Origin: Cycloclasticus sp.
GTDB taxonomy: Bacteria; Pseudomonadota; Gammaproteobacteria; Methylococcales; Cycloclasticaceae
Direction of reading: 5' to 3'
Assembly: GCA_040743155.1 (NCBI GenBank)
Contig: JBFLJU010000001.1
Coordinates: forward strand, 2,353,144 to 2,417,143
Length of the DNA stretch: 64,000 nucleotides
Shown here one piece after another: positions 50,076-56,330 of the stretch; the stretch's first letter is position 1; each line of letters begins with the position of its first letter. The notes beneath the pieces were generated by a model that was not told the origin of the DNA, ran no database searches, and saw nothing but the letters and a program-made list of their open reading frames with translations. Position numbers and translations under genes: made by a program.

Positions 50076-52109
50076 TTAAAGTGCAGGTGTAATGGCGCTT
50101 AGGCTATTGTGCTTAATTGTTCGAATAGCATTTTTCAATTTATTTATTCGGCTGGCATATTTTCGCACCCGCCCAGCAGAAGACTGCGCAATATCATTTA
50201 GTAAGGTTTCTGCTGAATCTATACGCTTTAAGCCAATGAGTGCATGTGCCTGCATTAGCCCAAAACGTGGATTACGCGGGTTAAGTTTCAAGCCTAAATC
50301 GGCGGTGGATAATGCATCGGCAAAACGGTTTTGTTTCATACGTATAGCAAATAAATGTACCAAGGAATAGTAGCGATGAGCGGGCTTGCCATTAGGCTTG
50401 TCAATAAGCGCTTGTAGCCAGCTAGCCACATCGTCAGCCTTCGATAAGCATCGATCATTGCCCGACATTACGCACTTTATTGAAACATCCAATGCGCGGA
50501 TTCCCCATGCGCCCATCGGTTTCTGACGAATGGTTGTGGCAATGTACTCAGGGCGGGCAAGTTGCAATGAGTTAAGTTGGCTTTCTAATTGCAGGAATGA
50601 TTTAGGAGTGACCATACTCAAGCTAATTAGAAACCCAGCCTCCTGAGGTGATAATTCGGCAGCTCGTAAGTAATAGGCATAGGAGCCTTCGAAGTCTTTC
50701 TCGCGTTTGCGTAAAATCTCACCGCGCAGGTATTGGCTGCTGGGTGAATCAGGGTGATTCATGGCAAGGCTTTCAATTAATGCCGATTCGGTGCTCCAAT
50801 ATTGAGCGCGATTAAACGTGCCAAAGCCTAAACAAAAAACAATAGTGCTTATTAAGCCTATTCGAATTGCTTTAGGCATTTTATCAGGTAAGGCAAAAAC
50901 TAATAAATAACTCATGCCGAATAATGGCCCAAGTGCCGGTAGGTAATTACGGTGTTCGTGGATTATTTCTAGTGGAAATACCGTAGACTCAAGGCTGTGC
51001 CCAACTAGGAACCAGAGCACCGAAAAGGCAAAGATGGGAAAGCGTTTGCGCCAAGCAATAGACAAACTCAATAAAATGATAATGCCAAAAATGCTCGGAA
51101 CGGTCGTTCCAATAGACAGCATATCCGAACTAAGCGGGAAATCATCATGAAACAGCCCCATTGTTTGAATATTGGGCACAATGATCATATACAAATAAAA
51201 CCACAAAACGCGAGGTTCAGTTAGCACGCGCTCAAGCAGGGTAAAAGGTCGTCCTGCGTAGCCGCCGGTAATAAACGTTGGGTGTTGAAACCAATATGCT
51301 AAACCGGCTAGTACGGGTAAGGCTAAAAACACAATAAAAAACCAGCGGACTCTTTTTATTGTTTCAGTTCGGCGGGGTAATTGGCTTAATAAGGTAAATT
51401 CTAGTACGCCGACATACACAGGCAATAGAATCGCATTTTCTTTACAAGCTGCACCCAGCACTGTGCCGCCGATAAGTCCTAAGCACATTAGCCATAATCC
51501 TTGATATGGTTTCTCTTCTAGGGATAATCGCCCAACTACATAAATACAGGCACCCATTAGCATAAACATGCCCGCCATGCTGGTCATGCGTTGTACAACA
51601 TAAAGTACACTGGTCAACAAGAAAGCGTGTAGTGCCCAAATAAGCGTACCGCTGATAGCAAAGACTAGACGGGGATTGGATATATTTGTGCGTTGCGCCC
51701 AAGGCGTTCGTGCAATACAGGGCCAAAGGAGGGTTAATAGCCAAAAGACCAAACCAGAGTTAATGCAATGAACGGCAATGTTTGTCAGCTTGAAATGAAC
51801 AGACTTAAAGCCCTCAGCAAAAAAGTAATTTAAGCCAAAAGAAAGCGCAGGAATGACACGCTTAAAAGGCCCACTTTCATTAGATAGCGCAGAGCGAATT
51901 ATTTCGTGCTCAGTAAGTTCATGAATAGGAACGTTTGGATTTTCTAAAATATTCAGCTGGTCATCAAATACAAACGGCCCATGCCAGCCAGGCGCATAGG
52001 CAAGAAAAATAACAATAAAGCATATGCTCCAAGCTAAAAGAGGTGAGCGAAAAATCAAGGGGTCAGCCAGCTTGATTTTTATACGATTCACTCTTTCTAT
52101 CTCCACCAT
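50076..52109 (-). CDS. TMTC-like GT-C glycosyltransferase with TPR region; 5' end altered by mobile element
   Basis: 677-residue membrane protein. About 11 helices fill residues 25-450. The first outer loop has FVFDDQLNILENP (about 46-58), like the Asp-Asp motif of GT-C enzymes and TMTC proteins, and a later loop has IHEHRNYLPALG. TPR-like helices fill the C-terminus (about 450-650, with LNPRNPRF). A lipid-linked sugar transferase is inferred; the pilin genes nearby make pilin a candidate target. Residues 12-19 are encoded by the left inverted repeat of the transposase element and residues 1-11 by transposase DNA, so the native start is lost or hidden. GTG 52091, with GGAG 9 bases before, is an alternative start. 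Confidence 0.75.
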   Translation of the reverse strand: MVEIERVNRIKIKLADPLIFRSPLLAWSICFIVIFLAYAPGWHGPFVFDDQLNILENPNVPIHELTEHEIIRSALSNESGPFKRVIPALSFGLNYFFAEGFKSVHFKLTNIAVHCINSGLVFWLLTLLWPCIARTPWAQRTNISNPRLVFAISGTLIWALHAFLLTSVLYVVQRMTSMAGMFMLMGACIYVVGRLSLEEKPYQGLWLMCLGLIGGTVLGAACKENAILLPVYVGVLEFTLLSQLPRRTETIKRVRWFFIVFLALPVLAGLAYWFQHPTFITGGYAGRPFTLLERVLTEPRVLWFYLYMIIVPNIQTMGLFHDDFPLSSDMLSIGTTVPSIFGIIILLSLSIAWRKRFPIFAFSVLWFLVGHSLESTVFPLEIIHEHRNYLPALGPLFGMSYLLVFALPDKMPKAIRIGLISTIVFCLGFGTFNRAQYWSTESALIESLAMNHPDSPSSQYLRGEILRKREKDFEGSYAYYLRAAELSPQEAGFLISLSMVTPKSFLQLESQLNSLQLARPEYIATTIRQKPMGAWGIRALDVSIKCVMSGNDRCLSKADDVASWLQALIDKPNGKPAHRYYSLVHLFAIRMKQNRFADALSTADLGLKLNPRNPRFGLMQAHALIGLKRIDSAETLLNDIAQSSAGRVRKYASRINKLKNAIRTIKHNSLSAITPAL
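52052..52077. repeat. Left 26-bp inverted repeat of the Y1-transposase element
   Basis: Perfect inverted copy of 52803-52828. Within it AATCAAG and CTTGATT pair, so each end can also form its own hairpin. It encodes the last four residues and stop of the transposase and, in another frame, part of the GT-C protein N-terminus. Confidence 0.85.
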
Positions 52110-52802: not shown

Positions 52803-52828
52803 AATCAAGCTGGCTGACCCCTTGATTT
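52803..52828. repeat. Right 26-bp inverted repeat of the Y1-transposase element
   Basis: Perfect inverted copy of 52052-52077, 30 bases before the transposase start. A partial repetition CTTGATTT follows directly at its outer side. Confidence 0.85.
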
Positions 52829-52857
52829 CTTGATTTTTGGTCAGTTATGGCCAATGA

Positions 52858-52877
52858 TCATGACTATGTAGTCATGA
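52858..52877. repeat. 20-bp palindrome
   Basis: TCATGACTA-TG-TAGTCATGA, perfect 9-bp arms. It may be an operator or a hairpin; no T-run follows. It lies 85 bases upstream of the transposase start. Confidence 0.55.
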
Positions 52878-52940
52878 ATTAATCATTTCAATTTAAAGAG
52901 TAATCGTTCCGATGTGGCAAGTTTGATGTATTAACAGGTT

Positions 52941-53017
52941 AAACCGATACCTACGAGACCTGAAAGGGGTCATGGTGATAAGCACCGTCTGGCTGATAAG
53001 GTGTAGGTATGCGGTTT
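52941..53017 (+). other. Unidentified 77-nt multibranch stem-loop
   Basis: AAACC (52941-52945) pairs with GGTTT (53013-53017) and ATACCTAC (52947-52954) with GTAGGTAT (53003-53010). Inside, GACC/GGTC (52957-52971) and GGTG/CACC (52974-52986) form small hairpins, and TGATAAG occurs twice. It is not a tRNA (no T-arm or acceptor) and no riboswitch class was recognised. The strand is assumed. Confidence 0.4.
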
Positions 53018-53186
53018 TCATCATGGCTATAGATCATTATGATCTTACTTAAGAGCCGAATATATGACTGCTAATCAATCTGTTTTAACATCAAAAAAAG
53101 AATAGGAACCATCAAGAAAGGTAGAGATGAATGAATTAAAAGTTGTTTTTAACCGCGTGTCCATATATGACCCCTTGATGTTCTCT

Positions 53187-54953
53187 TTATTGGGTAATAT
53201 CCATGGAACTTATGGCAATAGTTTCAGAAGTATTGGTAGCTCTATCTACGGGCCCGTTATTACCAGTAAATATTACAGCTTTAACGCTTTCAGTTGGGCC
53301 ACCGCTAGTTGGATTTAGATCACCTCGCGTATAAACAGCATCACATTTAGCAGTCAACTCTTCATTGGTGATATAAGCACGGCTTGTAGATACGCTGTCA
53401 GTAGCACAAGTATTGCCATTCATATCATCGTGGTTATCAACATAATCAACGCCTACTGATCTGTCACCAATCGCTGTTGAATCATCATAGTTCAAGTTGA
53501 CGTCCGGAGCCCAGCCGACAAGCTGTGTAAAATTAAATTCGAAAAAAGGTATTCTTTCGAGTGGAATATTAGTGGCTGTGTAAGTGCTACCTTCATATGA
53601 CCCATTGGCGGGCAGGTCTAAATACAACACTCTAGCTTGCATTTTTCTGCTTGCTCCGCCAGCAAACGAGGCGTGATTAATGCTGCCATCATTAAAATTC
53701 GAAGCTGTTGGAAAGGTGGTGTCGACGGTAGTTAATGCGAGAAGCTCAGCTGTTGTTGTGTAATTTAGGAGAACTTGTCTAATTAACGTGCCAAGGTAGT
53801 TAACGTAAGAGGATTTATTTGCGTCAGTCGTCGTCGTTCCTGTTGTACCTTGCCCAGAAACAGATACGCCTTCTGTAAAGTAGCTTTCAGGGATAACATT
53901 AATTGCTATGGCTTTCCATGGGTCATACATAAAGAGCTTTCCACCTATTAATTTTAGGCGACAAATTTTATCTGTTTCAGTCGGGTCACCGTTTATACCA
54001 AGACCTTGTTCGCAGCATAGAGTACATTCGCCAGCAATAGTACTAGCATCGCCACCGAGTGGCGCAATAGCCGTTTGTGTTATTGTGTCATTTCGGAGGC
54101 TTTGTACATCAGTTCTTTCTTTTTTAACGTTATCCCAAGATGGAACATAATAAATTTGTTCGGTATTATTTGTACCATTTTTACAGGGGCAGGCCACGGT
54201 TCTAAATTCATCTCGCGATGTAATGACGCGATCACTTGTTCTAAAGGTAGTTGAAACGGTTCTTGTTAAAATGCTACTGCCCTTGTTACTGATCTCGGGA
54301 GCTATTTCTTCGTGACCAAAACTTGACCCGTCGCCATTATCGAAAACTTCATCAGCACTGCTCTGTAGGTCGATTTCACCGCCACCCGCTGATGCCGGAG
54401 TTCCAGCCAATGCCGTGTTTTTTGTATTATAGCCGTACAAAGCAGTGTCGAATGAAACCACATTATTAGTCGTATCGCCCACGCCATCCCAAGTTACTTT
54501 GACATGCGCTAATTTCAGCGTTGATGAGGCAGGAGTAGTAATTGTGGCAACAGTACCTGCGCCATCAAAATGATAATTTGAAATAGTCCAAGTTAGTTCA
54601 TATGTTTGCCCGCCGAGCGTTGCTGTACCTGATTGCATGCGCCCACCTTTATTATCGGCAATATGTTCAAATGCCAATGATGCGGGGTGTTTTAGACCGT
54701 CAGAATCAACACCAATGTTATCCCATATAATGCCAGGTGTACTTGAGCTAAGGTGTATGAAACGCCTTAAATCATCAGCTTTTCTCTGAGCAATCGAGGC
54801 CGCCACCGCTCGGTTATTGGCATCCGCACCACTCCTTAGTAGGGATGTTTGTAATTTAGAAACAGCAAGAATACCAATACCCAAAATTAACACAGCCAGC
54901 ATGACTTCTATCAAACTAAAGCCAGATTGCTGTTTTTTCATATTTTTTTTCAT
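53187..54953 (-). CDS. PilV-like minor pilin, very long
   Basis: Class III prepilin start with cleavage after G11 (QQSG-FSLIEVML) and Glu5 of the mature protein, followed by the usual PilV helix. PilV proteins are normally about 170-190 residues; this one has 588. The extension is low in charge, threonine/serine rich, and has two cysteine clusters (CPCKNG and CTLCCEQ). It is the last gene of the fimT-pilW-pilX-pilV-like series and no pilY1 follows. The extra domain could form a pilus-tip structure; that is inference. Confidence 0.8.
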   Translation of the reverse strand: MKKNMKKQQSGFSLIEVMLAVLILGIGILAVSKLQTSLLRSGADANNRAVAASIAQRKADDLRRFIHLSSSTPGIIWDNIGVDSDGLKHPASLAFEHIADNKGGRMQSGTATLGGQTYELTWTISNYHFDGAGTVATITTPASSTLKLAHVKVTWDGVGDTTNNVVSFDTALYGYNTKNTALAGTPASAGGGEIDLQSSADEVFDNGDGSSFGHEEIAPEISNKGSSILTRTVSTTFRTSDRVITSRDEFRTVACPCKNGTNNTEQIYYVPSWDNVKKERTDVQSLRNDTITQTAIAPLGGDASTIAGECTLCCEQGLGINGDPTETDKICRLKLIGGKLFMYDPWKAIAINVIPESYFTEGVSVSGQGTTGTTTTDANKSSYVNYLGTLIRQVLLNYTTTAELLALTTVDTTFPTASNFNDGSINHASFAGGASRKMQARVLYLDLPANGSYEGSTYTATNIPLERIPFFEFNFTQLVGWAPDVNLNYDDSTAIGDRSVGVDYVDNHDDMNGNTCATDSVSTSRAYITNEELTAKCDAVYTRGDLNPTSGGPTESVKAVIFTGNNGPVDRATNTSETIAISSMDITQ

Positions 54954-54968
54954 GACTTTTCCAGAAAT

Positions 54969-56330
54969 TTAGGGAATAAAATTTCGCCAGCTATATTTAA
55001 CTTTTAAAAGCTTTGGCTCATTTATGGACTTAATTAAATTGCTGCCTACACACCAATCAAAAACTTGCGTGTAGTTACCGTTAGTTAAATTCGTAGGATC
55101 CTCTGAAACCACGGACCCGTGAACCATCGGGTTACCATTAAAAGTAATATTGCCATTACTAATCATAATTCCCCAAATATCGGAGTTATTAGATATAGTA
55201 AGGTCGCCGTTAACCACGACAAAAACGGGGTTGAGCTGGGTGCCGATAGAGCTAAAACTACAGTCTTCGGTAACAAAAATAAAAGGCTGGCTCGCATAGT
55301 CGTTGGCACCAGCCTCTGCGCACGTAAGGCTATCGTCAGCGAGGATCGAGATTACGCCCATATCTGATGTGCCGAAAATATAAGCTAAAGGTGAGGCTGG
55401 GAAGGGTGTTGTTGAGTTACTGCCTTCAATGCGAATATCGTAATCCAAATCGGCTGGGCCGCCGCCACCACCTGTACTTAAAACGCTATTACATGTACAG
55501 CTAGTCCAAGTGGCATGGGGGGTGGAATCGTCGTATACATCGGCGCATTCCTCACCTAAGGAATTTTGGTAATCACCCGTTAAACAAGTTGTCCAGTTGC
55601 CATTTGCGCCCGTTGCCGTCGTCGTCCAAACAGAAATGTCGGTCGCATTTTTTGGGTCTTCAAAAGCAGATCGTCCGTCTGTACATTCCCTACCCTCTAT
55701 GAGGTTCATTTGAGGGTCGGCAACGATCATAAAAGAACCACTTAAATTGGCAACCGGAGCTAAAACAGGAGGTAATCTATCAATACCAATAGTGGTGGTT
55801 TTTGCATAAGAAAGTTGGGCAATCGCCTCACCCGTGCCATCCGCACTTTCCCCTGTTCCTAACACTGTGATCATGTTTCCTATTGTCACAGAGGTGGTAA
55901 AAACCATATAACTGTCAGAAGCCACATTAGGAAGGTCAACAGTCGTCTCAACGGGGTCTATGGTATTTGTTGTGGTTAGGTTGCCGTCATAGGCAAATTC
56001 GTAAGTATCGGTTACGGTTGAGCCAACAACTTGGCAAGGGAACTTTGTGGCCAAGCCACCCGTGCAAGCCACCCATGACGCATGAGTTGATTCATATAGT
56101 TCATTATTTTCTTCAAGATAAGCTGCGCCTTGATCTAAAGCAGCGTTAGCGGCGGAAAAGGCTTCCTTATGGCGGTATTCATTACCTGCAATGCGTTGAT
56201 CCATCACGCCTACTCGCGCGGCGAAAATGGTGATTAACGTGACGCCTATCAATAGGACAATGGATACGAGTAAAACAGCCGCACCTTTTTGTTTGTTGAC
56301 GGAGTTTTGTGGATTAATCTGCTTCATCAT
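54969..56330 (-). CDS. PilX-like minor pilin, long
   Basis: N-terminus NKQKGAAVLLVSIVLLIGVTL and the block RIAGNEYRHKEAFSAANAALDQG are typical PilX; it lacks the Glu5 of major pilins, as PilX usually does. 453 residues, about twice usual PilX length, with several Cys pairs (CTCN, CTGG) and a glycine run. The C-terminal part (about 300-420) has repeats of beta character. It starts 5 bases after pilW and ends 15 before pilV. Confidence 0.8.
   Translation of the reverse strand: MMKQINPQNSVNKQKGAAVLLVSIVLLIGVTLITIFAARVGVMDQRIAGNEYRHKEAFSAANAALDQGAAYLEENNELYESTHASWVACTGGLATKFPCQVVGSTVTDTYEFAYDGNLTTTNTIDPVETTVDLPNVASDSYMVFTTSVTIGNMITVLGTGESADGTGEAIAQLSYAKTTTIGIDRLPPVLAPVANLSGSFMIVADPQMNLIEGRECTDGRSAFEDPKNATDISVWTTTATGANGNWTTCLTGDYQNSLGEECADVYDDSTPHATWTSCTCNSVLSTGGGGGPADLDYDIRIEGSNSTTPFPASPLAYIFGTSDMGVISILADDSLTCAEAGANDYASQPFIFVTEDCSFSSIGTQLNPVFVVVNGDLTISNNSDIWGIMISNGNITFNGNPMVHGSVVSEDPTNLTNGNYTQVFDWCVGSNLIKSINEPKLLKVKYSWRNFIP

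Follow-up and report, generated by a model that had tools for sequence, protein, structure and literature searches.

A membrane-protein gene of Cycloclasticus whose reading frame opens inside a neighbouring transposase gene: a probable case of start-codon takeover

The window analysed here is a stretch of 64,000 nucleotides from Cycloclasticus sp. (GenBank assembly GCA_040743155.1, contig JBFLJU010000001.1, positions 2,353,144 to 2,417,143), the genome of which consists of one contig of 2.56 Mb. The window contains a pilus locus with the gene order pilT, pilU, (pilE), fimT, pilW, pilX and pilV, followed by a transposase gene and the gene of a membrane protein with TPR repeats, and then by Rdx, hemE and gltD on the opposite strand. 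The names pilV, pilX and Rdx are based on family searches; the genes which we take to be pilT, pilU, pilE, fimT, pilW, hemE and gltD were named from the look of their sequences. The pilV- and pilX-like proteins (53187-56330) are just 31-44% identical between species, while gltD, hemE, pilU and pilT reach 84-98% there, and other members of the genus seem to have a different set of minor pilins at this pilus locus. The features around the junction are listed in Table 1.

Table 1. Features at the junction between the transposase gene and the membrane-protein gene (positions within the window).
Feature	Position	Strand	Remarks
Membrane/TPR protein open frame (putative GT-C), last gene of the minor-pilin cluster	50076..52109	-	residues 1-18 element-derived
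Right terminal repeat	52053..52077	-	RNA hairpin -8.3 kcal/mol; overlaps last codons and stop of the transposase gene
TTG, rival start (MIFRSPLLAW...)	52056..52058	-	SD -3.3 kcal/mol, 20.9% of random positions as good
Y1 (HUH) transposase, TIRYT/RAYT-like, 236 aa	52063..52773	-	Pfam Y1_Tnp, E 4.4e-13
GTG, most likely start (MNRIKIKLADPLIFRSPLLAW...)	52089..52091	-	SD duplex -6.4 kcal/mol, matched by 3.1% of random positions
Shine-Dalgarno-like GGTGGAG within the transposase GGDRKSE codons	52101..52107	-	
ATG, start of the longest frame	52107..52109	-	SD just -1.5 kcal/mol (51.5% as good); absent from G014
Left terminal repeat, inverted	52803..52827	+	
Third, outer half-repeat ATCAAGGGGTCA, just past the pilV-like gene	53168..53179	-	3 exact 12-mers in the window; mean of 0.14 in shuffles
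pilV-like minor pilin, upstream neighbour	53187..54953	-	TIGR02523 48.9 bits, under cut-off of 52.2; N_methyl

The open frame of the membrane/TPR protein comprises 677 amino acids when counted from the ATG at 52109 and overlaps the transposase frame by 47 nt (52063-52109) in a different frame. A sequence-only reading of this DNA had described a gene that starts 47 nt inside the transposase end on the same strand, which is borne out by the list of open reading frames with both genes on the minus strand. The statement that the frame reads through the terminal repeat at 52053-52077, and that some 19 of its first residues are derived from the element, holds as well (residues 1-18 or 19). The right repeat covers codons 11-19 and is read as IKLADPLI, after which the first membrane helix, as judged by eye, follows. 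An assembly error is unlikely, because the same junction is present in a second genome, G011 (L020). In 369 gammaproteobacterial genomes, a draw to which G011 and G014 did not belong, the exact back-translated transposase tail (GGDRKSExxKNQAG-stop) gave one match, the window itself.

Two inverted copies of an imperfect 25-nt palindrome, AATCAAGCTGGCTGACCCCTTGATT, flank the transposase gene, and the first half of the right copy encodes the terminal NQAG and the stop of the transposase. Within the window the 23-nt core of the repeat matches at the two terminal repeats only (mean of 0.00 in 100 shuffles). The repeat family is dispersed, as ten places with at most 3 mismatches are found in G000, of which this element accounts for two; the reversed control gave 0. 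A repeat copy elsewhere in the genome, at L129:1768-1792, sits 10 nt ahead of a 130-aa open frame, which is presumably the end of a truncated transposase.

With the motifs NHLHLLV and YIEMNP the transposase carries the Y---NP signature of Y1/HUH enzymes, and GGGGTCAG in both 25-mers (52053-52077 and 52803-52827) agrees with GGGGWSAS. The passages on TIRYTs and TIRtrons in Di Nocera et al. (2013; PMC3733652) describe a Y1 transposase gene between inverted GGGGWSAS repeats, and the figure legends mark flanking repeats that overlap the 3' end of the gene as '3'ov'. The element studied here shares the Y1 gene, these inverted repeats, the overlap of repeat and 3' end and, with some TIRYTs, the dispersal of the repeats over the genome. 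It differs in that a host gene begins inside the element and in that Pfam detects no HTH; a C-terminal HTH is reported in the part of PMC6006769 on subclass 2.1 transposases, which probably correspond to the TIRYTs. The Pfam search for an HTH was run at E values up to 10, where the HMMER filters drop weak matches. RAYT/TnpAREP-REP systems, as outlined in the relevant parts of PMC2817692 and PMC8266576, are similar in being HUH-Y single-gene elements between inverted palindromes. In contrast to them the present element has ten repeat copies and no GTAG/GTGG guide beside the 25-mers (the preceding four bases are TAAA, GAAA, AAGA and ATGG, both orientations inspected by eye). An identity as GTAG-REP RAYT/TnpAREP was rejected, since GT[AG]G is missing 0-2 nt 5' of the hairpin and the NCBIfam model NF047646 (REP-associated tyrosine transposase) scores 70 bits, below its cut-off of 80. 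The label TIRYT-like best fits the element, because its repeats contain GGGGWSAS and the GTAG guide is missing.

The product of the downstream gene is a TPR protein in which hydrophobic stretches are numerous. The earlier label of a GT-C glycosyltransferase found no confirmation, as Pfam matches TPR alone and no GT-C family in the window protein or in eight relatives, and the AlphaFold model (pLDDT 49.3) is too poor for a fold search. A sequence search of the PDB returned only weak TPR and chance matches. As a candidate for the acidic first-loop motif of a GT-C fold there is the pair D49-D50 near the first helix, which does not vary in an alignment of 19 sequences with that of the window among them; a GT-C fold which rests on this pair is putative. 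In the same alignment the invariant residues begin at Y38.

A relative is encoded at five named loci, three from Cycloclasticus and one from a Methylococcaceae MAG at 80-86% identity and a distant one at 33%. We compared 18 genomes of the genus, the window and 17 relatives. Close orthologues (at least 79% identity) were found in seven of them (window, G008, G011, G005, G014, G010 and G013), and the 5' end is readable in six, since G013 is cut by a contig end. Three orthologues are free of the element and start with their own ATG as MNKNIFTSPLLSW (G008), MLNKIFPSSLVLW (G005) and MLNKLFSSSLLLW (G010). None of them encodes the N-terminus of the window protein, which is therefore not native. The window, G011 and G014 carry the element at a common position. 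The junction of the window and G011, ...LADPLI(F/Y)RSPLLAW, lacks the native start. That of G014 reads ...LADPLILLKMTNPLASPLVLW; here the native ATG persists 19 nt past the transposase stop and shares its frame with the residues added by the element. The view that the insertion replaced the start is thus supported for the window and G011 but needs refining, as the survival of the native ATG in G014 makes its loss look like a second step.

The picture of a fresh insertion had to be given up. The transposases of G011 and G014, in orthologous position, are 75% and 74% identical to that of the window on the amino acid level, and nucleotide identity is 0.74 in each of the three pairs. The insertion appears old, because this divergence resembles that of the membrane/TPR gene (0.72-0.76). 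Between the three carriers the transposase shows pairwise dN values of 0.14-0.16, while dS exceeds 2 or could not be estimated; judged from these values the transposase at this locus is old and under purifying selection.

The descent of the locus is not simple. On a tree of six neighbouring proteins from 12 genomes the presence of the element requires one change among the six genomes with the membrane/TPR gene (support 74/69, 71% of 200 bootstrap trees), a result also reached in 51 of 500 shuffles of the label. An exclusive clade of the three carriers among the 12 genomes is rejected (p-AU 0.0003), so that losses or recombination must be added; G014 groups with G017, G001 and G004, and no membrane/TPR gene was found in their stretches at the locus, which calls for later losses. 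The tree of the gene itself pairs the window with the element-free G008 (88/99), contrary to simple descent, and this pair is not rejected by the six-gene data either (p-AU 0.159). Along the gene, 16 of the 23 informative sites that come first are G011-like, compared with 116 of 404 in the remainder (block permutation p 0.003, with any cut from 10 to 80 sites allowed). A recombination near the 5' end of the gene, in the lineage of the window or of G008, can explain the conflict, an explanation that is post hoc.

Could the membrane/TPR gene of the window be dead or dying, the insertion having taken its start while a long frame merely persists? Degraded or short remnants of the gene do occur in G002 and G001 (the short one of G001 on another contig), and in G006, which is just 58% complete, no such gene was found between hemE and a transposase remnant beside it. 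In G002 a pilT-like fragment adjoins the degraded copy beside hemE (L118:9312-10061), and this stretch yielded none of the remaining pilus genes. In the window, however, all 677 codons are intact, dN is 0.059 and dS 0.77 against G008 (dN/dS ~0.08), the respective values against G011 are 0.100 and 3.1 (dN/dS ~0.03, with dS near saturation), and the branch of the window in the gene tree is no longer than that of the element-free G008 (0.048 vs 0.066). With dN far below dS the gene is still constrained and thus presumably translated, and a dead gene is very improbable.

The question is then which codon is used. In-frame ATG, GTG or TTG codons of the window are found at residues 1, 2, 7 and 18 (52109, 52106, 52091 and 52058), all of them in the transposase gene or the repeat, and beyond the repeat none follows until residue 120. 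An ATG is first met again at residue 175, in agreement with the earlier observation that no ATG lies between repeat and first helix. For a constrained gene with no ordinary start until residue 120, a start supplied by the element seems nearly forced in the window, unless a non-canonical codon is used; this argument is weaker for G011, which also has TTG codons at residues 25 and 29 inside the first helix. Initiation at ATT or ATA in or just ahead of the first helix, by which the element-derived residues would never be made, could draw on such codons at residues 19, 29, 32 and 34. We regard it as extremely improbable, because the element-free orthologues and G014 have an ordinary ATG just ahead of the helix and a normal start thus seems needed.

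For the candidate codons anti-SD duplex energies were compared with those of 2000 random window positions; a second comparison set consisted of 47 mechanically called open frames, spurious ones included. Both GTG 52091 and TTG 52058, the alternatives named by the sequence-only reading, are in frame, and GTG has the stronger Shine-Dalgarno match, a by-product of transposase codons. This GTG is conserved in G011 and G014 with duplex energies of -5.5 kcal/mol (8.0% of random positions as good, hence a modest site) and -9.5 kcal/mol (0.2%), and the native ATG of G014 is without such a match (+0.6 kcal/mol). By termination at the transposase stop TGA (52063-52065) and reinitiation at TTG 52058 a protein MIFRSPLLAW... 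of near native length would be made, with just repeat-derived residues added. The TTG lies 4 nt past the transposase stop in the window, G011 and G014, and its product resembles the native MNKNIFTSPLLSW. On the other side, it is without a strong Shine-Dalgarno match and is located within the 3' arm of the repeat hairpin, and TTG is a weak start codon. Reinitiation is therefore a possible but rather unlikely route, and GTG 52091 is the best candidate, perhaps twice as credible as the TTG.

We consider it likely that the start codon was taken over and that, the native start being lost, translation now begins inside the transposase gene, most likely at GTG 52091. An ancestral Y1 unit flanked by its terminal inverted repeats would have inserted directly ahead of the start codon that belonged to the membrane/TPR gene at the end of the minor-pilin cluster. 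By chance the frame would have been open back into the transposase gene, where the GGDRKSE codons could double as ribosome-binding site and GTG. An N-terminally extended protein would then have been made and the native ATG become redundant, the condition that G014 displays. The lineages of the window and of G011 would subsequently have lost this ATG together with a few codons, and translation would now run from within the transposase gene across the repeat to the first membrane helix.

The gene may also be co-transcribed with the transposase. The proposal of a replaced promoter with read-through from the transposase gained no support, as no sigma-70-like site above threshold was found just upstream on the transposase strand in G014 and G011, where the lone promoter-like site of each stretch faces the other way, and the scan of the window gave three sites vs 5.4 in shuffles. 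Inspection by eye gave a weak lead to a candidate promoter, as 17 nt past the TTGATT in the left repeat comes TAAATT in the window and G011 and TAGAGT in G014, with four of six matches per box. The transposase and the membrane/TPR gene of G011 and of G014 are parted from the pilus genes by a toxin-antitoxin pair that runs on the other strand. This fits separate transcription and suggests that in these two genomes transcripts from pilV do not just continue into the transposase and the gene behind it. Ahead of the native ATG there are strong hairpins in G005 (-21.4 kcal/mol) and G010 (-14.6 kcal/mol), that of G008 is not above shuffles, and a terminator scan, which did not cover G010, did not list the hairpin of G005. 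The element might have replaced a native terminator hairpin in the manner of the stem-loop replacement that the part of PMC5678879 on IS1272 reports.

The toxin-antitoxin genes vary. Between the outer and the left repeat a ParD/ParE-like pair is found in G011 and a MazE/PemK-like pair in G014, both on the strand opposite to the transposase, and PIN-type toxin genes adjoin the transposase remnant of G006 (L083:7462-7922, L085:7607-8165 and L126:1867-3204; 52828-53167 in the window). The interval of the window contains no open frame over 63 aa. The repeats may frame an exchangeable toxin-antitoxin cargo.

We also looked at 28 transposase loci, the window included, with mechanically called open frames and without fragmentary copies; they include related copies and are not independent. 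As raw counts, the nearest open frame downstream shares the strand of the transposase at 23 of the 28 loci, and the nearest one upstream does so at 16. At seven loci (L055, L057, L058, L059, L141, L145 and L151) the first in-frame ATG of the downstream frame lies 17-33 nt past the transposase stop, and in two more, the window and G011, the downstream frame overlaps the transposase gene. Such a spacing could come from insertion shortly ahead of ribosome-binding sites or else from selection for co-transcription. A frame that opens 92 nt inside a transposase gene of a different kind is found downstream of it in G015 (L058), but with an ordinary ATG 25 nt past the stop no takeover is evident in that genome. 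It is improbable, though conceivable, that the 3' end of the transposase gene acts as a portable out-of-frame start module, consisting of the GGDRKSE ribosome-binding site, the GTG and the open frame through the repeat. If true, the element would become indispensable by taking over the start of the gene behind it, which could help to explain the persistence, between species, of Y1 transposases that are low in copy number and seemingly immobile.

Starts donated by elements are already known; the novelty lies in the overlap with a transposase gene that is maintained and in the apparent intermediate in G014. Among the matches listed in the literature on element-supplied start codons this arrangement is not described. 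The sections of PMC3733652 on intragenic REPs and Rickettsia palindromic elements report repeat-derived residues in host proteins and suspect misannotation for most N-terminal cases. The residues seen here are alike, but the native start is absent, and therefore misannotation alone is not sufficient. The blaNDM chimera is similar in that its foreign start goes back to an event involving a mobile element. According to the part of PMC8894482 that deals with it, its first six residues match aphA6, a cargo gene, whereas here the foreign residues are contributed by a transposase gene and its terminal repeat under selection between species.

The six genomes form a natural series with the native start and no element (three), the element together with the native start (one), and the element with the start lost (two). 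With this series, the step-by-step capture of a start codon by a transposase gene that is maintained can be put to a direct test, and it is a counter-example to writing off N-terminal repeat-derived residues as misannotation.
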